Shown piece by piece: positions 1 to 15,153 of a stretch of DNA of 20,803 bases. The notes beneath the pieces were generated by a model. That model made no database searches. It was given only the letters and a program-made list of their open reading frames with translations, and was not told the DNA's origin. Position 1 is the stretch's first letter, and the number at the start of each line of letters is the position of its first letter. The translations under genes were made by a program, and so were the position numbers. The stretch comes from a virus, in IMG/VR virus record IMGVR_UViG_3300037189_009730, positions 1 through 20,803 of that record. One strand, given 5' to 3'.

Positions 1-2930
1 TCTTGGTCGCGATCGCTGAGCCCATAGCCGTATTCATCGTTGCTGAAGAAGTCTATGACCTGCTGTATGCTGTAGGCACGCTCGTCGTAGTCGTAGTCGG
101 GTTCTGGATCTAAGTCATCGCTGTTGCCCTGTGTGTCGCGGAATATGAGTTCGGCTTCAAAACCAGCACGTATGCCCTTTGCGGCAGGTGACGTGGCAAA
201 CTTTTCCAAGGCTCCAGGACTCATTTTTACTTCGTCCAGTTCCTCGTCTTCGGCCAGTTTCTGCTGGCGATACATCTGATACATTTTTACATAGTCTTGC
301 TCGCCGCGTGTGAGTGGACGGCCCATTCGAGCCTTGCCTACGATAAATTTATAGTATTGTTCAGCGTCTTGATTCTTGTTGATCGGAGCCTGTATGGCCT
401 CATCCACATTGTAAGTGGGATCAGTTTTGATCTTTTTGCCTGCAGGTTGACGGGGATCCACAGGATCAATGTCTGTGACATCCAGGCCTGTGGCTTCCAA
501 GTCTCGAATAAATTTGTGTTCGGTATCTTCGTCACCAAAACTGATAATACTGCTGGGTGGTCCTTGCCCAAAGTCATGCTGACCAAGGCCTTTCATGTTT
601 GAGATGTGCTGACCCAGTTTGTACCAGTCATACACATCGCTGACATCCACACGCACTGTGCCCTTGGGCATGGTAGGTCGGAACTCTGGACCCGGTGGCG
701 CATCGGGGCTGTAGTCTTCCGCGGTTTTGTATTGCTTATACTCGCGATAAAGTTCTTCAAACAAGCCGTTGGCTTGGGCCGTCTGTGGAACGCCTTGTCG
801 ATCGGTCTTTAATTTTAACTTGTTGGCTTCTTTGCCTACCTGTCCGGGCTTGATATCTTGTGTGAGTGCCATGCTGTAGCGTGGATCCCGGGCCTGCTTT
901 CGTGTTGGTATGTATCCTGACGCCGACTCCTTGAGGTTGGCACCAGGCGGCAAGGCTATGCGGCCTTGCGGATTCAGCATGTGTTCATAGGCCGCGGCTT
1001 CGACGCTGCCGGCACCTTTTTCCCGGGCCAATTGGGCCAAGACACCGGGACTGGTCTGGTAGGTCTGTGCCAACTGTCGTACCTTTTGCTTCCAGGCATG
1101 GGCTGGATCTACGGGTGCAGTTTCTTTGAGGTGGCTGGCCTGTGCTCGTGTTGGTATGTATCCTGAAGCACTTTCCATTACAGGCATTTTTCTAACATCC
1201 ACGATTGATTCTGCATATTTGATTTTTAACATCAACAAGAAATCATCAAAATCTTTACGTGAGGCAAATACCAATTGATTGTTCTTTGAATAGCCGTGAG
1301 TGCCAGTGCTGATTTTTAATACAAAATGCTGATCTGTTTCGCCTACATAATCAGCAGTTCCATAAAAAACAACAATCTTGTCAGCGGTTTGAGATGGCAT
1401 GGCCAAAATACAGGTGTTATTTTTTTTGGGTTTGATTACATTTTTGTTATATTCATTTAACCAGGCATCAAAATTAACGGCCTGTTCTGGATTGATCGAT
1501 TCAAACATTTTGGCAGGCCATAGATTGTCTGATCGTACACCAAATCCAATGCCTAGCCATGGATTATCCACAGACTCTTCCAGGTCCGCGGCCTGTCCCA
1601 CGGCAAAATATTCTGGGTGTAGTCGACCATAGTCGCGCATGAGCACACCAGCTCGTGCATTGGCTTCGTTTTCGTAGGCACTGCCGGTTTCGCCAGCACT
1701 TGGTGGAACTGCTTCACGCTCGTGTTGGTGCTTGTGTGTGAGTTCATGTGCCACGGTGCGTAGCACATCCATGATATGGCGCCTGCCCCAGGCCACTTCC
1801 AAGGTTTTGGCGTTGTCATTGTAGCGACCAAAGGTCTTGTGTACCGCGGGCCACTGTGGATCTCGGCGTAGCTTGACTCGGGGCATTTGCTCTATTTTTA
1901 ATTCGGCCACACAAAAATCTACAAAGTCTCGCAGTATTTCTTCGTCGGAGGTGTCTTGAGTTTCTGTGGTAAACATGGCTGTGGTAGGACTTACTCCCGA
2001 GGGTGTCATGCCAACATCTTCACTGGTAAACATGTCTGTGGTGGGATTTACACCATCCCAAGTCATGCCTGCATCTTCTCGGACACTTTCACCACCATCA
2101 CCACCACCATCACCACCTTCGGTTCCGGCCGGATGATCCTGTCCAGCATAGGCATATCCAGGATACCAATAGCCGCCATATCCATATCGCACTGATTTCC
2201 GTTTCTTCTTTTTCCGGCGTTCGTCCAGGCTCAGCAACTCGTCCTTGGCCGCACTTCTGGCATCGTATAACTTTTTGATCAGGCCCTGTGTTCTTAGTAT
2301 CTTGAATGCTAGATTTTCAGGGCCAAACTCTCCGTGAGCATCCAAGCCGGCTTGACGATAGTCTCGGATCTTGTCGGCCATGGCTGAAATCTTTTCATAG
2401 TCCTGGCTGGCAATGGCCGATTCAATTCTGTGACCAAGATCTTCAAATTTTGATTTTACAGAGATGTCATCCACGTCAGGTCTGCGACGTTTGGGCACTG
2501 ACACCCAGTCATTGTTCATTATGCTGTAGATGCCTTGGCTGTGATGAGTTTTGTTGGCATCTTGCACATACAGTTCTACATCATAGCCACCAATTTTTAT
2601 ATTGTGCTGTTCATTATAGGCATACTTTTTGGCATCAAACAGTTCACGATAAACTTCGTTGGCATCTGCTTGAGGTAAGTCTACCACCAGATGTAGATCT
2701 ATATCTGAGTGTGGAGTGTAGGTATAGGCTGCGTTGGAGCCTGAAACAGTGATGTCTTTGACTTCGACATCTATGCCCAGGAATTCGCGGAAATCATCGG
2801 CGATGCGTAGCAGTTGCTCACGCACCTCGGGGCGCATTTTTTCATTTGTGCCCCAGATGCGTGGATTTAGTCGGTCGTTGAACTTGACAGCATCGCTTAA
2901 ATCGTAGGAATCTAACTCATGGATGTTCAT
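1..2930 (-). CDS. Large multidomain phage protein, 3' end outside window: nucleotidyltransferase + HExxH metallopeptidase + probable amidoligase domain
   Basis: Reading frame open from ATG at 2930 to the window edge, 976 codons without a stop. Domains in order: a nucleotidyltransferase-like fold at residues about 40-125, with G64-S65, then SDID (D76, D78) and a further acidic YDVEL at 117-121; a basic KKKKRK stretch near 240; a Gly/Asp linker at 272-280; a tandem 19-residue repeat at 285-322; a zinc-metallopeptidase-like module at about 330-440 with HELTH at 395-399 and a downstream ENEAN (E420, E422) that could give the third, glutamate ligand; two copies of ASGYIPTR (588-595, 670-677); and at 921-930 the motif AGFEAELIF, resembling the start of amidoligase (glutamine-synthetase-like ligase) domains. 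The start has no Shine-Dalgarno but lies 5 nt after a late promoter core. Molecular role unknown. The NTase and peptidase motifs are clear; the amidoligase call is tentative because the domain is cut by the window end. Confidence 0.85.
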   Translation of the reverse strand, partial: MNIHELDSYDLSDAVKFNDRLNPRIWGTNEKMRPEVREQLLRIADDFREFLGIDVEVKDITVSGSNAAYTYTPHSDIDLHLVVDLPQADANEVYRELFDAKKYAYNEQHNIKIGGYDVELYVQDANKTHHSQGIYSIMNNDWVSVPKRRRPDVDDISVKSKFEDLGHRIESAIASQDYEKISAMADKIRDYRQAGLDAHGEFGPENLAFKILRTQGLIKKLYDARSAAKDELLSLDERRKKKKRKSVRYGYGGYWYPGYAYAGQDHPAGTEGGDGGGDGGESVREDAGMTWDGVNPTTDMFTSEDVGMTPSGVSPTTAMFTTETQDTSDEEILRDFVDFCVAELKIEQMPRVKLRRDPQWPAVHKTFGRYNDNAKTLEVAWGRRHIMDVLRTVAHELTHKHQHEREAVPPSAGETGSAYENEANARAGVLMRDYGRLHPEYFAVGQAADLEESVDNPWLGIGFGVRSDNLWPAKMFESINPEQAVNFDAWLNEYNKNVIKPKKNNTCILAMPSQTADKIVVFYGTADYVGETDQHFVLKISTGTHGYSKNNQLVFASRKDFDDFLLMLKIKYAESIVDVRKMPVMESASGYIPTRAQASHLKETAPVDPAHAWKQKVRQLAQTYQTSPGVLAQLAREKGAGSVEAAAYEHMLNPQGRIALPPGANLKESASGYIPTRKQARDPRYSMALTQDIKPGQVGKEANKLKLKTDRQGVPQTAQANGLFEELYREYKQYKTAEDYSPDAPPGPEFRPTMPKGTVRVDVSDVYDWYKLGQHISNMKGLGQHDFGQGPPSSIISFGDEDTEHKFIRDLEATGLDVTDIDPVDPRQPAGKKIKTDPTYNVDEAIQAPINKNQDAEQYYKFIVGKARMGRPLTRGEQDYVKMYQMYRQQKLAEDEELDEVKMSPGALEKFATSPAAKGIRAGFEAELIFRDTQGNSDDLDPEPDYDYDERAYSIQQVIDFFSNDEYGYGLSDRDQ
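901..1166. repeat. 20-bp perfect direct repeat (901-920 and 1147-1166) encoding a duplicated peptide motif
   Basis: The 20-mer CGTGTTGGTATGTATCCTGA occurs at 901-920 and again at 1147-1166, inside the large minus-strand gene. It encodes SGYIPTR within the sequence (E)SASGYIPTR(A/K)QA, present twice 82 residues apart. The second protein copy is followed by DPRYSMALTQDIKPG. Similar ASGYIP-type segments are, from memory, common in marine T4-like phage proteins. Function unknown. Confidence 0.8.
1965..2078 (-). repeat. Two tandem 57-bp (19-residue) protein repeats
   Basis: Residues 285-303 and 304-322 of the large protein align without gaps: both follow the pattern EDxGMTxxGVxPTTxMFT. The nucleotide copies are 2022-2078 and 1965-2021 and have diverged, so the duplication is not recent. 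They follow a GGDGGGDGG linker encoded by the CCACCATCA-rich stretch near 2090-2115. Confidence 0.75.
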
Positions 2931-2944: not shown

Positions 2945-3850
2945 TTACTTGGCTTTGGCTTGTTTCTTGGGTTTTTTGCTTGACGCAATGGTTTTTGCCA
3001 CCACGGGCTGATCCACTGGCGGTGGCGCCTGTACTGTGTCTACCGGTGCTGCTACGCCATTGGCCTGGGCCATGGCATGCAGATCTTGGTATAATTTGTC
3101 CTGAGCCTGGAAATCAAACACATAGGTACCTGTGTGTTTCAGCAACACACGCTTGTCTACCCAGACCTTGCCGCCTAGATCACGCCAGTTTTCACAGAAG
3201 GTCCAGTCTTCTGAATAGTAGCGATTTTCACGCACTGCGGTGTCAAAGTAAGTTTTCATGTAGGAATTGAGTTCCTCAGGCAGGCCAATGTCGTTGGCAA
3301 ACGGGCGAGTGGCTGGGTGAGCATTTAACTTCTCAAACACTCCACGCTTGATCAACATGAATCCTGTGCCTGTTTTTGATACTTCTTGCAGGCCATCGGG
3401 TCCTTCTTCGGCACCCTCAAAACCGTTGACACACCATCTCACTGGCAGGCTTTTCATTGGGTAAAGTCCACCGATGACATCCACGTCACGGTTCAACATG
3501 ACCAACAAGTGCCATGGTTCCCAACCAATGTCAGCGTCAACGAACATCAAGTGAGTTGATTCTTTGTTGGCCAGAAACTTGGCTGTGAGTGTGTTACGGG
3601 CACGGCTGATCAAACTTTCATTGGTCATGGTTTCCATGGTCCAATCAATGCCCAATTCACGGCAAGTGTTGGCCCATTTGATATAGCTCATAAACGTTGA
3701 TTCTGTGAGCATGCCACCATAGCAGGGCATGCATATGTGGACTCGCGTGGTTCTCAAATAATCAATGTTGACCTGGATCTGTTGTTGTCCAGGATTGGCA
3801 CCCGCTTGCGGGGTTTGTGTGGTGGGCAATGCGTCGTTGGTTTCAGCCAT
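2945..3850 (-). CDS. GT-A fold glycosyltransferase
   Basis: 301 residues. After a flexible Gln/Pro-rich N terminus (1-25), the sequence VHICMPCYGGM (37-47) opens a glycosyltransferase 2-like fold, and FVDADIGW at 103-110 carries the DxD-type nucleotide-sugar/metal site (DAD 105-107). GTGFMLIKRGV at 161-171 resembles the acceptor-side segment of GT-A phage enzymes. The C terminus is a Lys/Ala-rich tail (KKPKKQAKAK). Start chosen because GAGGA lies 5 nt before the ATG in a roughly 20-nt leader behind a late promoter core at 3875-3882. The likely role is transfer of a sugar onto phage or host components; the substrate cannot be told. It lies 14 nt upstream of the large multidomain gene. Confidence 0.85.
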   Translation of the reverse strand: MAETNDALPTTQTPQAGANPGQQQIQVNIDYLRTTRVHICMPCYGGMLTESTFMSYIKWANTCRELGIDWTMETMTNESLISRARNTLTAKFLANKESTHLMFVDADIGWEPWHLLVMLNRDVDVIGGLYPMKSLPVRWCVNGFEGAEEGPDGLQEVSKTGTGFMLIKRGVFEKLNAHPATRPFANDIGLPEELNSYMKTYFDTAVRENRYYSEDWTFCENWRDLGGKVWVDKRVLLKHTGTYVFDFQAQDKLYQDLHAMAQANGVAAPVDTVQAPPPVDQPVVAKTIASSKKPKKQAKAK

Positions 3851-3874
3851 GTTGTCCTCTAGTAAAGTGTCAGA

Positions 3875-3882
3875 TATTTACT
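3875..3882 (-). promoter_or_regulatory. Late promoter core AGTAAATA
   Basis: AGTAAATA on the minus strand, 24 nt before the glycosyltransferase ATG at 3850. It leaves a leader with a GAGGA ribosome binding site, unlike the leaderless-type promoters nearby. Confidence 0.55.
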
Positions 3883-3899
3883 GACTATTATACAGTGGT

Positions 3900-4745
3900 T
3901 TATTTTTTCTTGCGACCAGCGCAGTGTGCCTTTTGGCTGAATCCTTGGGGCCTGGCACAGTTGATACTGCGTTTATACTTACGACTCCATTTTTCATCAA
4001 TGTAGTCCATGCTATTGCGCAATTCTTGCAGGCGTTGTTGTAGATATTGTATATTTTTACGCAGGCTGGCCAGGCGTTCTTCACGCATGACGCTGACAGG
4101 ATTATCGCCGGCATATATGCGTTCTTGCCCGTAGATAATGCCTTCGGCAGGTTGGTCCACACCCAGACGTTGATCAAATGTAGCTCGAAGTTCTAGATCT
4201 GGCTCACCGTAGAGATCTGCAATGATTTGATCGCGATCATTGTCGTTGCCTGCTGTGTAAAGTTTGCGGATTTGGCTGGCACTGTTGGCATCTACACCTT
4301 TGACCCGAAAGTTTACGGTAGGAGTTATAGCAACATACCCGTGCTGGGTCATTGGCTCGATGCCTTTTTTATTGTCGGGCAAGGGCTGTAAGTAACCGGG
4401 TGAGCCATCTTTCTTTGGAGAAAAATTAAATCGTTCAGCATCTTTGGCGCTGACAGCAAATACCAACACAGTGTTGGCCTTTTGTTCATCTGACAGTGCG
4501 GACGTGATTTCTGTGGCCTGATAGGGATTCTTTACCTTGACAATTTGTCCCGACGGAACACCCAATTTGGTAGCCATTTTTACCTTGTCTGCATATTTAA
4601 ATGGACTGGTCTCGGCATCTTGCTTGTCACTGCTGGCTATAAACACTGAGTTTTCTCCAAACTGCTGGGTCAACCAATCATAGCTGGCCTTGTGACCTAG
4701 ATGGAACGGATGGAATCTGCCGGGATATATTACAAGATAGTTCAT
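3900..4745 (-). CDS. Nucleotidyltransferase (NMNAT/cytidylyltransferase-like HxGH family)
   Basis: 281 residues. GRFHPFHLGH at 9-18 is the hallmark (H/T)xGH motif of the nucleotidylyl-transferase superfamily (NadM, cytidylyltransferases), and SASQIR at 155-160 matches the second superfamily motif (S-x-S/T-x-x-R). These enzymes transfer a nucleotide from NTP with release of pyrophosphate; whether the acceptor is NMN or a sugar/alcohol phosphate cannot be decided. After a coiled-coil-like stretch (about 225-250) there is a basic C-terminal tail with INCARPQGFSQKAHCAGRKK, containing C263, H274 and C275. I associate this tail with several marine T4-like phage proteins. Transcribed from a late core at 4753-4760, 7 nt before the ATG, with no Shine-Dalgarno. 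Confidence 0.85.
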   Translation of the reverse strand: MNYLVIYPGRFHPFHLGHKASYDWLTQQFGENSVFIASSDKQDAETSPFKYADKVKMATKLGVPSGQIVKVKNPYQATEITSALSDEQKANTVLVFAVSAKDAERFNFSPKKDGSPGYLQPLPDNKKGIEPMTQHGYVAITPTVNFRVKGVDANSASQIRKLYTAGNDNDRDQIIADLYGEPDLELRATFDQRLGVDQPAEGIIYGQERIYAGDNPVSVMREERLASLRKNIQYLQQRLQELRNSMDYIDEKWSRKYKRSINCARPQGFSQKAHCAGRKKK

Positions 4746-5736: not shown

Positions 5737-6444
5737 TTATTTAGCAGTGATTATGTGCATAGTTTTTCTTATGATTCCAGGCTGAACCAGGCTCAACAAG
5801 GTACACCAGCTTTCCGCATCGTGATCCACAAAAAAATAATCCTGCGTGCGATTAAAGGGTTGATCAATCCAGCGTGTCAGGGCTGGACTCAAACGCACAT
5901 GAGCACTTTGCGTGATTAAAAATTCTTCCAGGCGGTATCGTTGGTCTGCAGTCAACTTGCACATGATCAAATAGGTGCGGAATTGATGTCGTGGATTTCG
6001 CAATTGGATTGTGTTTTTGGGCCTGACTATTTGGGCCTGGGTATAGGTTTTATAGGTCAGTTCGGGCATGTTGTTTAACTGTTCCAACAAGTCTAGGTCA
6101 TTGCTGTAGACATAGCCTTGATTCATGCTGACCACCAGTTTGAAATCAACTGACGTGTTCAACAATGCTTCTGCTAGGGTGTGCAGATCTTGCACAGTTT
6201 TTTCTGTGATGTCTTTCCAGCGCCGGCTCATGATAATGCCGTGATTTCGGCGGCCCGAGACCCAGCGTTGTTGAGCTATTTCGCGCCACTGTTTCCTGCG
6301 TTCAATCATGTCGTCTATGTGAGCATGATCCAACACTCGTAGACAACTGATTTCGTCTAAATGAAACCCCAAACAGTGAGTGAATCGATCATAAAACCGT
6401 CGATCTTTGCGGACAGGTTTAAACTTGAGGTTTGTCAAGAACAA
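5737..6444 (-). CDS. Conserved phage hypothetical protein (TTG start)
   Basis: 235 residues, basic, Arg- and His-rich, no membrane segment. The frame begins at a TTG codon (6444) inside the 3' end of the clpA-like gene (26-nt overlap), with AAGGA 4 nt before it; no in-frame ATG lies near. Notable segments are YSNDLDLLEQL, HQFRTYLIMCKLTADQ and YFFVDHDAESWCTLLSLVQPGIIRK. I recall this type of protein in marine T4-like phages without a function. The overlap with the chaperone gene suggests co-expression. No catalytic motif identified. Confidence 0.75.
   Translation of the reverse strand: MFLTNLKFKPVRKDRRFYDRFTHCLGFHLDEISCLRVLDHAHIDDMIERRKQWREIAQQRWVSGRRNHGIIMSRRWKDITEKTVQDLHTLAEALLNTSVDFKLVVSMNQGYVYSNDLDLLEQLNNMPELTYKTYTQAQIVRPKNTIQLRNPRHQFRTYLIMCKLTADQRYRLEEFLITQSAHVRLSPALTRWIDQPFNRTQDYFFVDHDAESWCTLLSLVQPGIIRKTMHIITAK
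5738..5745 (-). promoter_or_regulatory. Late promoter core GCTAAATA
   Basis: GCTAAATA on the minus strand, 7 nt before the ATG at 5730, within the last codons of the 235-residue gene. Predicted near-leaderless transcript for the small structural-type trio. Confidence 0.6.
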
Positions 6445-8689
6445 TGTATCCTTGCTCGTCTACCATGGGCATCGCTGTGGATTGATCTATCTGGAATTCA
6501 ACTTGGTCATTGATCATGTCAGCCTGTATGTTACAGTTTTCCAATTGGTCAAACAAGATGCGTTTGCTGAGTGGCACACGGATCAGTTCATCAATCTTGC
6601 GGTTCAAGGGTCTAGCACCCATCTTGGGATCATAGCCTTTGTCGGCCAGCATGTCTATGACACTTTCGCTGAGATTGAGACGTATGTTTTTGTTGGCCAG
6701 GCTGGACTTGAGTTCATCCACAAACTTGATCACAATCTTCTTGATGGCAAGTGTGTCTAACTTGGCAAACCGGCATACTTGATCAATACGATTGCGTAGT
6801 TCGGGTTTGAAAAAGTCTTTCATGGCTTTATCTTCTGAACCTGTGCGTTCCAGGCTCTGACCAAATCCAATGTTGTTGTTTTCATTGTCTCTGGCACCCA
6901 GATTTGACGTCATGATAATGATGCAGTTTTTGAGGTTTACAGTCTTGCCATTGGCACTGGTAATTCTAGCTTCGTCTAGGATCTGCAACATGATGTTGAT
7001 CACATCTGGATGCGCTTTTTCAATTTCATCAAACAGCAACACAGCATAGGGATTCTTTGACACATCCGAAATCAACTTGCCACCACCTACATTGCCATCT
7101 TCAAAGCCCACATAGCCCGGAGGAGCACCAATCAGACTCGATACTGTGTGACGCTCTTGATACTCACTCATGTCATATTTCAGCAGTTTCATGTCAAGAT
7201 TTTCTGCCAGCAACTTGGCCAGTTCTGTTTTGCCTGTGCCAGTGGGGCCTAAAAACAAAAAGCTGGCAATGGGCCGCCGGTCGTTGCCAATGCCAGAGAA
7301 GTTGATGTACACACGGTCCAACACACTATCTACCGCGGCATCTTGCCCGTAGAGTTTTTGTTTGATATTGCTTTCCAATTCCATGATCTTGACACTGCGT
7401 TCATTTTGCAAACGATCCACAGGCACATCAGTGGTGCGACTTAGCTGTGCCATGATCATGTCGCGGGTCACTGTGATTAGTCCAGCGTCTTTGACTCGCT
7501 CTCGAGCACAGGCTCCGTCCAGGAGATCAATGCTCTTGTCTGGATTCTTGCGGTCATGTATGTAACGACCCGACAGTTCTACTGCGGCTGTGATGGCTTC
7601 AGTGTCTATGAGCACGTTGTGGAACAGTTCCAGTCTGGGACTCAACCCAATCAAGATCTGTTCAGTGGTTCCAGCATCGGGCTCGTCTATGGCCACACGA
7701 TGGAATCGCCGCATGAGCGCACGATCTTTTTCAAAACTTTCGTAGTATTCTTCCCAAGTAGTATTAGCAATTACCTTTAACACGCCCTTGGTAATAGCCG
7801 GCTTGATCATGTTGGCCATGTCTAGTGTGCTTTGACTCGATGAACCGGCACCTTTCATGGTGTGTGCCTCGTCAATGAACAGTATACACTTTTTCTTGGC
7901 ACTGAGAGCACCAATGACCTGTTTGAACTTTTCTTCAAACTCGCCGCGATACTTTGATCCGGCCAACAAGCTACCCACTTCTAAACTCCATAGTTCGTGA
8001 TCCTTGAGAAAGTTGGGCACACGACCTGCCACCATCTCCTGGGCTAGGCCTTCCACTATGGCGGTTTTGCCCACGCCCGGATCTCCAACCATGAGCACGT
8101 TGGCCTTGAACTTGCGGGCCAACACTGTGATCATTTCGTCTAGTTCTTCACTGCGACCAATCATGGGTTCCAGGCGATCTTCCTTGGCCAGGGCAGTGAG
8201 GTTCACACAGTGCTCTGTGAGTATTTCTGTGGCCTGCTGATCTGTGAACACCACGTCACTTTGTTTGTAATTGGCTTGCCAAAATTCCACAAACTCGGCT
8301 TTTTTAACTCCGTATTTGAGAAGAAAATAATGAGCATGGCTATTGTTTTCAGCCATCATGGCCAGGTATAGATCCAAGGTGCTGACAGTTCTACGGCCTG
8401 TGAATAACACCTGTGTAAGGGCGCGATTAAAAACCCTTTCGAGAGCATTGGTCTTTTTGGGTTGCACTTCTTTGGTAGTGATCAAGCTGGCACAGCTTTC
8501 CAAATAGGCATCTAGTTCTTGATCAAACAAGTTGAGGTCTGTGCCAAATTTTTCCAGCACACGACGAAACGGTTCGTGGCGTATCATGCTCAACAACACA
8601 TGTTCAGTCATCACATACTCGTGGCGACGATCTCGGGCCAGCTTGACAGCGGCATCAATGATTTGTTCAATTTCGGGATTGTTTTGCAT
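6419..8689 (-). CDS. clpA-like: ClpA-like AAA+ protein unfoldase
   Basis: 756 residues from the ATG at 8689, matching E. coli ClpA length. This start is preferred over the in-frame ATG at 8746 because AAGGA stands just upstream and the Clp N-domain begins here (EIEQIIDAAVKLARDRRHE). Order: N-domain 1-140; first AAA+ with Walker A GDPGVGKT (202-209) and Walker B ILFIDEAH (269-276); second AAA+ with GPTGTGKT (481-488) and VLLFDE (550-555); C-terminal small domain to 756. There is no ClpB middle domain. A tripeptide IGF at 607-609, in NNNIGFGQS, sits where ClpA has its IGL ClpP-docking loop. It therefore probably unfolds proteins and may feed host ClpP. It follows dnaJ and has its own sigma70-type promoter. 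Confidence 0.93.
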   Translation of the reverse strand: MQNNPEIEQIIDAAVKLARDRRHEYVMTEHVLLSMIRHEPFRRVLEKFGTDLNLFDQELDAYLESCASLITTKEVQPKKTNALERVFNRALTQVLFTGRRTVSTLDLYLAMMAENNSHAHYFLLKYGVKKAEFVEFWQANYKQSDVVFTDQQATEILTEHCVNLTALAKEDRLEPMIGRSEELDEMITVLARKFKANVLMVGDPGVGKTAIVEGLAQEMVAGRVPNFLKDHELWSLEVGSLLAGSKYRGEFEEKFKQVIGALSAKKKCILFIDEAHTMKGAGSSSQSTLDMANMIKPAITKGVLKVIANTTWEEYYESFEKDRALMRRFHRVAIDEPDAGTTEQILIGLSPRLELFHNVLIDTEAITAAVELSGRYIHDRKNPDKSIDLLDGACARERVKDAGLITVTRDMIMAQLSRTTDVPVDRLQNERSVKIMELESNIKQKLYGQDAAVDSVLDRVYINFSGIGNDRRPIASFLFLGPTGTGKTELAKLLAENLDMKLLKYDMSEYQERHTVSSLIGAPPGYVGFEDGNVGGGKLISDVSKNPYAVLLFDEIEKAHPDVINIMLQILDEARITSANGKTVNLKNCIIIMTSNLGARDNENNNIGFGQSLERTGSEDKAMKDFFKPELRNRIDQVCRFAKLDTLAIKKIVIKFVDELKSSLANKNIRLNLSESVIDMLADKGYDPKMGARPLNRKIDELIRVPLSKRILFDQLENCNIQADMINDQVEFQIDQSTAMPMVDEQGYIVLDKPQV

Positions 8690-8719
8690 ATGGTCCTTGT
8701 TTTGTTTCGCCCAACTTAT

Positions 8720-8748
8720 AGTATATACTAATTTACTGCAAATCACAA
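8720..8748 (-). promoter_or_regulatory. Sigma70-type promoter for the clpA-like gene
   Basis: TTGTGA (8743-8748), 17-nt spacer, TATACT (8720-8725) on the minus strand: a 4/6 -35 box and a 5/6 -10 box at optimal spacing. The start would fall near 8713, leaving a leader of about 24 nt with the AAGGA ribosome binding site. This suggests recognition by host RNA polymerase before the late switch. Confidence 0.55.
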
Positions 8749-8758
8749 TCTATAAGGA

Positions 8759-8766
8759 TATTTATT
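8759..8766 (-). promoter_or_regulatory. Possible late promoter core AATAAATA upstream of clpA-like gene
   Basis: AATAAATA on the minus strand overlapping the dnaJ stop codon, about 70 nt before the clpA-like ATG. It matches the late core but is AT-rich and far from the gene, so it is weaker evidence than the others. Confidence 0.3.
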
Positions 8767-9556
8767 TGGTAGTTTTTTCTATCATAGCCATGAGTTCTGG
8801 ATCGATGTGATCTGGAATACGGGCCTGTAATTTGACCAATAAATCACCAGATGATTTGTCACGCCCGGTCAATCCTCGTCCACGCAAACGCACTGTGGTT
8901 CCAGGTTGCGTCCTTGCTGATATGGTCAGATCCAACGAATTACCAAGAATATCTTTGACAATGGTATTTCCTCCGGTGATCAACTGCCAGATGTCCACAG
9001 GGTGTTCCAAATAGAGATTCAATGCTTGTCGTGTAAATCGAGCATCTGGATGTACACGATAGGTTATCACAAGGTCCATGCCGGCCATTGGACCAGCACC
9101 GGGGTACTGCACAGTGTCACCATCATCTATGCCAGGAGGAATTTCAATTTCCACTGCCTGTGTACCTTGTTGGGTGCCCACACCAATGGTTCGTCGGCCA
9201 CCTTCGGCTATGTCTCGCAAGGTTATCCACAGGCTCATCCTGGCCTGCTGATGTCGTTGTTGCTGTTGTTGCCCTGGATGTTGGAATCGTGTGCCAAATA
9301 TGTCAAATATGGTCTGAAAGTCAAACGGCGCATCTGCTCTAAAGCCTCCGCCCATGCCACCAAAGCCGGGATTGTCATGGGCCGCACGACGATTGGGATC
9401 ACTCAAGGTATCGTAGGCTGCTTGTATGTCTTGAAAAGTTTTGGTGTCACCACCGCGGTCAGGATGATGCTGACTGGCCAACTTGCGATAGGCACGTTTG
9501 ATTTCGTCTGGACCGGCGTTGCGATCAACGCCCAGGGTTTGGTAGGGATTTTGCAT
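8762..9556 (-). CDS. dnaJ-like: DnaJ/CbpA-type J-domain co-chaperone
   Basis: 264 residues. The J domain (about 3-65) has the HPD tripeptide at 31-33 in SQHHPDRGGD, needed to stimulate DnaK ATPase. A Gly/Phe-rich linker (about 62-95, GFGGMGGGF, FDIFGTRF) leads into a DnaJ C-terminal substrate-binding region (about 105-255) with IPPGIDDGDTVQYPG and RLRGRGL. The CxxCxGxG zinc finger is absent, so it resembles CbpA rather than canonical DnaJ, and it is shorter than CbpA (about 306). No Shine-Dalgarno is seen before the ATG. A perfect TATAAT box stands at 9583-9588. It lies directly upstream of the clpA-like gene, suggesting a chaperone/unfoldase pair. Probably recruits host DnaK. Confidence 0.92.
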   Translation of the reverse strand: MQNPYQTLGVDRNAGPDEIKRAYRKLASQHHPDRGGDTKTFQDIQAAYDTLSDPNRRAAHDNPGFGGMGGGFRADAPFDFQTIFDIFGTRFQHPGQQQQQRHQQARMSLWITLRDIAEGGRRTIGVGTQQGTQAVEIEIPPGIDDGDTVQYPGAGPMAGMDLVITYRVHPDARFTRQALNLYLEHPVDIWQLITGGNTIVKDILGNSLDLTISARTQPGTTVRLRGRGLTGRDKSSGDLLVKLQARIPDHIDPELMAMIEKTTK

Positions 9557-10808: not shown

Positions 10809-11558
10809 TTATAAACTGTAGGGGTCTACTATAACAAGATGACCGTTGTTTCTGCGGCCGAGATTTTCCACAGCTGAAAGATCCAAAGGTGCGGTTCCAC
10901 CCAAGGCACGCATCATGTGTTCGGTGGCCTGCAACAAACCTGTCAACTGCTTGGCGCCTATTTCATTGGGCACAGGGTTGGCTCGCACATATTCTGCGCC
11001 TTGCCCACGGTCCACAGCACTCATCAGCTTCTCAATATAGTCCAAGGTGGCTTCTTCGTTGGCCACATAGTTCACACGTTCCATTTCATACACAAAGTAG
11101 GTTTCGCCTGCCACAGTGAAGTCGCCGCTGTTGTATATTCTTGGGTAGAAAGGATTCCGTTGATTTTGTTCAAAAAACTTGACGTAACGCCGGACTACCT
11201 GTTCACGCTCGTCTTCGCCCGTGCCCAGCACTTTTACGATGGTGCCTCGCGGACTTTCAAAGGCCATTTGATCACGTCCTTCACCGGCCAAGTCATAGCC
11301 ACGTTGGAAAAAGTATTGTTGTATCTGATCACTGACTGTGAGTTCGTCGGGATAGTTTACTTCTTTCAACGTGTCAAACTTCTTGACCCAGGCAAATCTA
11401 GTGGTGTCCGGAATCCACTTGACTCCCATGTGGCTTTTTGTGTCTGGATTGGCGTTGATCAAGAAGTCGCCGTCTTGGTGCCGTAATATCTGCACTATTT
11501 GGCCAGTTTTTTCTATCTTGGCCATGACCCGGCCCTGTGTGAATTCTTCGGCTCTCAT
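10809..11558 (-). CDS. Protein-kinase-like fold phage protein
   Basis: 249 residues. Features of a kinase-like fold: GTIVKVLG (about residues 105-112) may hold the ATP-lysine strand, YFVYEMERV resembles the hinge, and the end DLSAVENLGRRNNGHLVIVDPYSL has the spacing of a catalytic-loop D...N followed by a DFG-like VDP. The HxD-type catalytic aspartate context is degenerate, so activity is doubtful. The N terminus MRAEEF resembles the capsid-targeting peptide of its neighbour (MRAQDFITE) but lacks the IxE cleavage site. The ATG overlaps the upstream stop by 4 nt (ATGA). I recall similar proteins in marine T4-like phages without assigned function. Confidence 0.72.
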   Translation of the reverse strand: MRAEEFTQGRVMAKIEKTGQIVQILRHQDGDFLINANPDTKSHMGVKWIPDTTRFAWVKKFDTLKEVNYPDELTVSDQIQQYFFQRGYDLAGEGRDQMAFESPRGTIVKVLGTGEDEREQVVRRYVKFFEQNQRNPFYPRIYNSGDFTVAGETYFVYEMERVNYVANEEATLDYIEKLMSAVDRGQGAEYVRANPVPNEIGAKQLTGLLQATEHMMRALGGTAPLDLSAVENLGRRNNGHLVIVDPYSL

Positions 11559-12034
11559 GGTGTTCCTATCCAGGCATTGACCCGCAATCCTTCAGGATGC
11601 AACCGGAAAGCAGCCATGGTCCTGTGCCAACCTTCCCATAGTTCCAGACCTCGGGCTGTTTTTAGCAAGATCACGGGTGGCAAATTCTCCATGCCATTCT
11701 CGCGCACCAACTCCAAGGCCTGTTCAAATCTTTCTCTATCTCTGGGAATCATGAAAGGATTCTTGTTGCCAAAGTCTCGTTTGATCTTCATGCGGTATCT
11801 GGTGTCAGCATTCAGCATGTCAAAAGTCAAGGGCATGTTCTGAACCAACTGCCAACGCTCTACCATGGTGGCCAACTCACGCACATGGTCCAGTTTCATT
11901 TCAAGATCCTGCGGTGATTTTATCTTGGCGATCACCATGTCCTTGAGCACATAGTCGGGCCAGTCCGGTAGTTCATCACGCAGGATGTCCATAACTCCGC
12001 GTTGCACTTCTGTGATAAAGTCTTGAGCTCTCAT
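11555..12034 (-). CDS. ParB/sulfiredoxin-like fold protein with T4-type capsid-targeting N terminus
   Basis: 159 residues. Residues 1-9, MRAQDFITE, closely resemble the T4 internal-protein capsid-targeting peptide MKTYQEFIAE, including the F-I-x-E end that the prohead protease cleaves. The C-terminal part has LPPVILLKTARGLELWEGWHRTMAA (about 117-141), where GWHR matches the GxHR/GxxR signature of ParB-like and sulfiredoxin-like folds. It overlaps both neighbours by 4 nt (ATGA at each end), so it is translationally coupled between the lipoprotein and kinase-like genes. Likely head-associated, possibly injected with DNA; nuclease, ATPase or other activity is not established. Confidence 0.75.
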   Translation of the reverse strand: MRAQDFITEVQRGVMDILRDELPDWPDYVLKDMVIAKIKSPQDLEMKLDHVRELATMVERWQLVQNMPLTFDMLNADTRYRMKIKRDFGNKNPFMIPRDRERFEQALELVRENGMENLPPVILLKTARGLELWEGWHRTMAAFRLHPEGLRVNAWIGTP

Positions 12035-14323: not shown

Positions 14324-14593
14324 TTATTTGCCGATACTGTTGTAAATCTTTTGTTGATTGTCATACCACTGAGTCCAGCCGTCAGCACGATTCTTGCACT
14401 CGTAGTAGAGCGCATAGTTGGCCGTGACCACTTCCAAGAGACTACTTAGCTGGTGGTCTTGCGGGTTGACTTGTGCTAGGCTTGGGCAGGGTTCCCGCAG
14501 CTCCTGAGGACCTTCCGGAAATTTTATTTTGACTGGCACTGTTGAGCATCCAACAAGCGATACCAATGAGATAATAAGTAAAAAACTTTTCAT
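14324..14593 (-). CDS. Outer-membrane spanin-like lipoprotein (Rz1-like)
   Basis: 89 residues from ATG 14593 (an in-frame upstream start at 14608 is less likely; AAGG lies before the inner one). MKSFLLIISLVSLVGCSTVP is a lipoprotein signal with lipobox LVGC and C16. The short mature chain has Pro-containing N-terminal segments (VPVKIKFPEGPQ, EPCPSL) and the conserved-looking end VVTANYALYYECKNRADGWTQWYD, typical of phage Rz1/o-spanin lipoproteins. It would pair with the inner spanin to fuse inner and outer membranes at lysis. It is separated from the i-spanin gene by a homing endonuclease gene, whose stop it overlaps (ATGA). Confidence 0.85.
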   Translation of the reverse strand: MKSFLLIISLVSLVGCSTVPVKIKFPEGPQELREPCPSLAQVNPQDHQLSSLLEVVTANYALYYECKNRADGWTQWYDNQQKIYNSIGK

Positions 14594-15153
14594 TGGGCAA
14601 CCTTGCATTTGTCAAAATGCCAGCGTTTGGCATTACCAATATTCATTACTTTACGACAATGGGGACATTCTAAATCTCCGCCTAAATGTTGTCCTTTGAA
14701 CAAATCTTTTAAGCGTAAATAATGGTCTGGTTTGATTGCGTTTTGCCAGTTTCCTTTGCGACCTCTATTATAATTATTCAATGATATTTTAGTCTTGGTT
14801 TCTGATGTATGTTTTCTACCCAGAGCAGCGGTAGAGAGTTTTTGTATTGTTTCTTGTGAATAGCAGTCAGACTTTCCTTTGTTCCATGGCTCGGCCTGGC
14901 CACCAAATCTTTTGTTGTAGGTTTGTTCTGGAGTTTTTACAAGCTCTTTAATAAGTTTTTGCTCAACAAAAAAAGCTTCTTCGGCTGACCCTACAAACAA
15001 TATTTCTCGAGTAAAATCGTTTGGACGCTTGTAATACTCTTCAAGTAAATATTGTCCAGAACTGATGTAACCATCATCTGGAGTGCCTTTATGATATCCA
15101 ACATAAACTTTTCTAGTAACATTATCTGTCCATTGATAAACAAATGCTTCCAT
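14590..15153 (-). CDS. GIY-YIG homing endonuclease (Seg-like) with NUMOD3 motif and zinc finger
   Basis: 187 residues. The GIY-YIG domain (1-85) is in the variant form VYQ (5-7) ... YVGYHKG (17-23), with a metal-binding-type glutamate in FFVEQKLIKEL (about 61-71) and YNKRFGGQ closing the domain. A NUMOD3-type DNA-binding motif, GRKHTSETKTKIS, is at 112-124. A C2HC zinc finger at the C terminus uses C163, C166, H179 and C183. The gene is AT-richer than its neighbours, a sign of transfer. It overlaps the i-spanin stop by 1 nt (TAATG) and the o-spanin start by 4 nt (ATGA). It is free-standing: I see no intron. Probably spreads by cutting relatives that lack it. Confidence 0.9.
   Translation of the reverse strand: MEAFVYQWTDNVTRKVYVGYHKGTPDDGYISSGQYLLEEYYKRPNDFTREILFVGSAEEAFFVEQKLIKELVKTPEQTYNKRFGGQAEPWNKGKSDCYSQETIQKLSTAALGRKHTSETKTKISLNNYNRGRKGNWQNAIKPDHYLRLKDLFKGQHLGGDLECPHCRKVMNIGNAKRWHFDKCKVAQ

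Follow-up and report, generated by a model that had tools for sequence, protein, structure and literature searches.

Hydrophobic-x-Glu punctuation at module joins suggests that a giant protein of T4-like jumbo phages is a head-packaged effector polyprotein

The virus record IMGVR_UViG_3300037189_009730 of IMG/VR, a contig fragment, was analysed over its whole length of 20,803 bases (the window). One end of it is occupied by a giant gene on the minus strand (3–2930), whose frame starts with an ATG at 2930, runs through 976 codons without a stop and is open at the contig edge (base 3), its 3′ end lying beyond. We refer to the product, a giant polyvalent protein, as P0001. Scanning of viral contigs with P0001 returned 21 loci, 20 of which are clear relatives; at locus L022 the match is confined to the region around linker residues 282–312. 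Full-length relatives are mostly 1,257–2,096 amino acids long; in the set from the scan the majority have 1,331–2,096 codons, with two short ones of 503 and 808 codons. All motifs that a first-pass annotation had picked out in the frame were located, namely G64-S65, S75-D76-I77-D78, HELTH (395–399), ENEAN (420–424), two copies of ASGYIPTR (588–595 and 670–677) and AGFEAELIF (922–930). In a 19-sequence alignment G64, S65, S75, D76, I77, D78, E119, H395, E396, H399, E420, E422 and N424 are invariant; SDID and H-E-L-x-H are thus kept in the relatives, and the motifs are not due to chance. A sequence search with whole P0001 against solved structures gave no match, and the AlphaFold model of the whole protein has a low mean predicted local distance difference test score (pLDDT) of 56, which makes it useful for domain limits only. 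The linkers between the modules are predicted to be disordered. The one between the first two domains contains a 19-residue tandem motif, DAGMTWDGVNPTTDMFTSE and DVGMTPSGVSPTTAMFTTE (residues 282–312; window 1995–2087, minus strand, as are all P0001 features below).

The N-terminal part of P0001 (residues ~8–243; 2202–2909) is a Pol-beta nucleotidyltransferase (NTase) domain, as had been proposed. It passes the Pfam NTP_transf_2 cut-off by a small margin (21.5 bits, cut-off 21, E 3e-4), matches phrog_36119 (E 9e-43) and carries the family's GS motif, its DxD motif as SDID and a third carboxylate, E119, all of them invariant. The top Foldseek ranks are led by Pol-beta NTases, among them AAD(9), AadA and the MNT antitoxin, with E-values above 1e-3 even for this clear NTase. 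Homologues without the giant's other domains occur in Synechococcus (cyanophage), Maribacter and Lak phages, and the stand-alone cyanophage protein terminates at LSL, to be compared with LSLDE at the end of the domain in P0001. Judging from family membership, a host protein or RNA might receive a nucleotide from this NTase.

Residues 327–442 (1605–1952) form a minigluzincin-like zinc peptidase domain according to AlphaFold2 and Foldseek. Modelled alone, this segment reached a pLDDT of 88 and a predicted template modelling score of 0.82, and folds into one helix, a three-stranded sheet, a helix with the zinc-binding HELTH motif (1734–1748) and a further helix bearing ENEAN (1659–1673) with the likely third zinc ligand. 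The predicted structure therefore has the HEXXH helix and downstream Glu helix of gluzincins within a zincin fold, in line with the earlier reading of the two motifs as one zinc site. The first four Foldseek matches are minigluzincins (probability 0.98–1.0; jannalysin/abylysin 0.99–1.0), and later ones include IrrE, Wss1 and CapP. Jannalysin, abylysin and selecase, the best structural matches, share the HEXXH and Glu helices with the phage domain but only 12–15% sequence identity, while Pfam Peptidase_M78 gave a sub-threshold match in a single relative. As a guess from its family, the peptidase might cut a host regulator.

The frame runs off the contig within a third domain. Residues 901–976 (3–230; VKMSPGAL...GFEAELIF), the first ~76 residues of it, align with the start of an amidoligase domain in the relatives. 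Four of five full-length relatives (L003, L006, L018 and L020) score above the Amidoligase_2 (PF12224) cut-off (27–41.5 bits against 22), and AGFEAE of P0001 corresponds to the conserved beginning of the matching domain, which upholds the assignment of AGFEAELIF as an amidoligase start. For the catalytic part of the window's own copy we infer from relatives L002, L003 and L004 (best segments 77–89% identical) that it is likewise an amidoligase. Motifs conserved in the relatives are GFExE, EPDxS, GLExVSPP, TGxHMG and YIEFR. By score and motifs these domains resemble the Amidoligase_2 family at large; what sets them apart is that they are built into phage polyproteins or encoded by phage genes with leaders. 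Their family suggests that host proteins or metabolites may be their substrates for amide bond formation. In the cultured Agrobacterium phage Atu_ph07 an amidoligase annotated as hypothetical protein (AUZ94978.1; L067:8479–9981) stands alone, two genes away from the portal gene, with the leader-like start MRWQDISSKKLTE↓LKMNSSTL (arrows mark joins or candidate cleavage positions throughout).

Between peptidase and amidoligase lie smaller modules. The two copies of ASGYIPTR proved to be starts of one separable module: the first (1146–1169) belongs to a truncated copy and the second (900–923) begins a full SGYIP module. They are followed by the VDVSDVYDWYKLG module (residues ~706–840; 411–815), whose position differs between relatives, and by the helical AIQAP/RPLTRGEQDYVKMYQ module (residues 845–893; 252–398). 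A census of amidoligase open reading frames (ORFs) in 79 viral loci revealed extensive shuffling. NTase, peptidase and amidoligase occur together in 38 viral ORFs, some from near-identical contigs, in permuted order, and SGYIP, VDVSD, AIQ, FAP, ISDE and NFADG modules are inserted, lost or relocated between ORFs. L003 and L016 encode a HAD phosphatase separately, just downstream of the giant; in L014 it is built into the giant as a module.

The co-occurrence of the three domains in 38 ORFs might suggest one trifunctional enzyme, in which they would work one after another on a shared substrate, for example to make a modified peptide or protein. We regard this as very improbable: in about 40 census ORFs the amidoligase is the sole module detected, cyanophages, Lak phages and Maribacter phages encode the NTase as a gene of its own, the module order is permuted and the linkers are predicted to be disordered. 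A single enzyme pathway was rejected since its modules occur apart and in changing order, and the first-pass picture of one polypeptide with three joint activities is better replaced by one of separable modules, also found as separate genes and joined at a recurrent motif. A module of the form NFADGK...GRVKRAGASC..SVTDLRRRAKNASG is found at L020:11854–12054 and at the C-terminus of the L006 giant, and often lies near the C-terminus. A different giant of 2,073 amino acids (L018:2818–9036), beginning MINKTILNE↓GGN, has NTase and amidoligase in the same chain together with a phrog_19290 region, a cytidylyltransferase and, by eye, a possible KVDG covalent nucleotidyltransferase/ligase stretch.

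The modules begin immediately after [LIV]-x-E, which is the cleavage motif of the T4-type prohead protease gp21. The hydrophobic-x-E sequence at which gp21 cuts T4 internal head proteins is thus present, as candidate sites, at the giant's joins. In P0001 they comprise E237 at the end of the NTase domain (LSLDE↓RRKKKK; 2220–2222), E285 between NTase and peptidase (SVRE↓DAGMT; 2076–2078; IRE↓S or IQE↓S in relatives), E452 after the peptidase (DLEE↓SVDNP; 1575–1577), E586 and E668 before the first and second ASGYIPT copies (VME↓SASGYIPT; 1173–1175, and LKE↓SASGYIPT; 927–929), E603 (LKE↓TAPVDPA; 1122–1124), E844 before the AIQAP module (NVDE↓AIQAP; 399–401) and E900 at the amidoligase start (ELDE↓VKMSPGAL; 231–233).

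Across the relatives, [LIVMF]xE directly precedes the amidoligase in 81 of 81 ORFs, whether the domain stands alone or is fused after unrelated sequence. Stand-alone amidoligases have a leader of 10–25 amino acids, such as MRYKELLSEQQLDE↓LRMSPGSL. When distinct contexts only are counted, position P1 is E and P3 is L, I or V in 71/71 cases each, while P12–P8 are variable. Unrelated modules are preceded by [LIV]xE as well: FAP in 13/13, ISDE in 11/11, AFN in 6/6 and NFADG in 36/40 (E in 40/40). For the SGYIP module the strict motif is present at 24/38 joins, and a glutamate is at the start or one residue off in nearly all. Across the giants, [LIVM]xE occurs at a background rate of 1.5%. Recurrence at several unrelated modules argues against the residues being part of one module's fold. 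We also used breakpoints between giants set by alignment alone, blind to any motif: 40 of 183 fall within 5 residues of [LIV]xE[ASGTNV], compared with 10.3 ± 3.1 expected under circular shift (0/1000 shifts), and no enrichment near these breakpoints was observed for [LIV]xD or [LIV]xK. Because related sequences are not independent, the per-module test is the stronger of the two.

Several modules also exist as separate genes with a leader resembling those of T4 internal proteins (MRAQEFLxE↓). T4 leaders consist of targeting residues and a cleavage site (PMC9026906, PMC5694885); in the capsid targeting sequence of IPIII, targeting depends on the early residues and cutting on residues 8 and 10 (PMC9026906). 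In 18 relatives, 46/92 of the ORFs that immediately follow the giant gene have a leader, against 10/328 and 11/308 genome-wide in two large genomes; examples are MRAQEFLAE↓, MRSDEFISE↓ and MRFKEFITE↓. Amidoligase ORFs without NTase open with the leader-like MQIHEL or MKFREINKKLRE↓A. Separate and fused copies align from the glutamate onwards, as in MRLRE↓FAPSP and NVNE↓FAPTP, MRACEFIAE↓ISDER and DLYE↓VSDQR, MRAHEFVTE↓NFADG and EVDE↓NFADG, or MRANEFVIE↓AFDQP and GLME↓AFNAP. Fused copies have thus kept the cutting residues and lost the targeting ones. Such joins could be fusion scars: the modules would descend from leader-bearing internal proteins, the LxE motifs between them would be uncut relics, and the fused giant would work as an intact chain, be it in the head or in the infected cell. 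Linkers would tolerate relics, and the giant's own N-terminus is no convincing leader. Nevertheless, P3 hydrophobic residues and P1 glutamates are kept at fused joins across very divergent sequences from which the targeting part is gone, a pattern that looks like selection on the cut and not like decay. We therefore consider fusion scars unlikely.

The expected protease is encoded by the relatives. Eight contigs of 280 kb or longer with a giant gene or an amidoligase gene with a leader were searched for gp21 (PF03420), and all eight have it. In two of them, G002 and G014, it lies within a T4-type portal-gp21-gp22-gp23 cassette located elsewhere in the genome from the giant, and gp23 carries YLRE↓NASSG or YLKE↓NASAG near its N-terminus. 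Head proteases of T4 and giant phages cut after glutamate (PMC5694885), and the P1 prohead protease cuts P1 DarA (PMC12810830). The domains could instead be freed by the embedded minigluzincin, as has been proposed for other polyvalent proteins and argued for P1 DdrB (PMC5512222): the peptidase is present in nearly all giants, and its zinc site is intact in the model. However, the same motif is also found where the leaders of separate genes end and in front of amidoligases that stand alone and lack a peptidase domain, as expected of a head protease acting in trans, and gp21 is present in all eight of the largest relatives. We judge self-processing to be improbable, less so than a trifunctional enzyme. 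Since the joins coincide both with prohead-protease-type sites and with the leaders of separate genes, release in trans by gp21 is the likelier route. Of the earlier suggestions that the protein might self-process or be a head-packaged effector set, the direction was right, with the second now preferred.

We propose as the probable explanation that T4-like jumbo phages have here a polyvalent effector polyprotein: a chain of fused modules of the T4 internal head protein type, which gp21 cuts inside the prohead before the parts are injected. The sequences themselves show the modules, their shuffling, copies of them as separate genes with leaders, the [LIV]xE motif where modules meet, and gp21 in all eight of the largest relatives; packaging, cleavage and injection of the giant, and all its targets, are what we infer from these. 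The giant would be synthesised late and incorporated into the prohead core, where a gp21-type protease would cut after the glutamate of the [LIV]xE joins (in the window, the eight sites given above). Cutting would release the nucleotidyltransferase, the minigluzincin peptidase, the amidoligase and several small modules, which would stay in the head with the DNA, be ejected into the next host and modify host molecules ahead of phage gene expression. With somewhat less assurance, though still on the favourable side of even, we suggest that tailed phages use a true polyprotein strategy, in which fusion of internal head proteins gives chains of up to about 2,000 residues, the capsid maturation protease cuts these within the prohead at [LIV]xE joins and a kit of fixed ratio is injected with the genome.

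Several observations weigh against this proposal. A scoring matrix trained on the neighbours does not recognise the N-terminus of the giant (MNIxELDSY) as a leader, ranking it 31/328 and 41/308; a capsid targeting sequence is thus found on the separate module genes and not on the giant. N-termini of the form [LIF]xE[ASGN] are not enriched across G002 (17 against 12.9 ± 3.3). A start pattern M..[QHRNK]E[FLI] was more frequent than expected in G002 (11 against 1.1) and G014 (5 against 1.1), but was post hoc, replicated only moderately and was not relied on. Some SGYIP joins read QNE or TNE, and stand-alone cyanophage NTases sit amid replication or early genes. Finally, both gp21 and the catalytic core of the amidoligase are absent from the 20.8-kb window, a fragment without head genes.

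The statement in the first-pass annotation that no described system combines such parts was too strong. Polyvalent proteins of phages and conjugative elements (Iyer et al. 2017, PMC5512222) are built around a metallopeptidase hub and include Pol-beta NTases; an analogy with polyproteins was drawn there, with processing assigned to the embedded peptidase, and amidoligases are not mentioned. Like them, the giant has several distinct domains in one large phage polypeptide, including a zincin-like metallopeptidase (three-stranded sheet, HEXXH helix and Glu helix) and a Pol-beta NTase, and it is a predicted head-packaged effector in late-gene surroundings, with lysis genes in the window and a leader-bearing cassette downstream in relatives. 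It differs from them in its T4-like jumbo phage setting, in the amidoligase and in joins at [LIV]xE sites that match leaders of separate genes. The T4 internal head proteins IPI-III and Alt offer the second likeness: module genes have an N-terminal leader ending in [LI]xE, and gp21 is present. Alt is an injected enzyme, processed by gp21 at both ends (PMC9026906, PMC5694885). The giant differs from these in having many modules in one chain, repeated internal sites and, where the NTase comes first, no convincing leader. No description of its particular arrangement was found in the literature searched (open-licence papers only). What appears to be new is that an amidoligase is part of the combination, that the phages are T4-like jumbo phages, that polyvalent modules are tied to T4-type leaders and that prohead-protease motifs occur at the joins. 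If the proposal is true, the injected proteins of environmental T4-like and jumbo phages, for the most part annotated as hypothetical, could be recognised from sequence alone by a simple rule: a module boundary right after hydrophobic-x-E, in a phage that has gp21. A DNA phage would then stockpile and ration its head-delivered enzyme kit as a polyprotein cut by the capsid protease, and the amidoligase would join the enzymes at work at the very start of infection.

Other genes of the window were also inspected. Two neighbours on the minus strand have starts of the kind described above: one gene (11555–12034) has the T4-internal-protein-like leader MRAQDFITE↓V, and the other (10809–11558), with a weak protein-kinase match, has the leader-like start MRAEEF. 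Holin, Rz-like and endolysin genes lie inside the window, and a homing endonuclease gene (14590–15153; phrog_314, E 3e-25) is located among the lysis genes. Directly upstream of the giant are a phrog_1574 gene with a weak Anp1 glycosyltransferase match and a gene for a HIGH-type cytidylyltransferase (2945–4745), both kept in G002 and G014. A ClpB-type double AAA ATPase gene beside a DnaJ gene (6419–9556) is also kept upstream of the giant gene in these two genomes.

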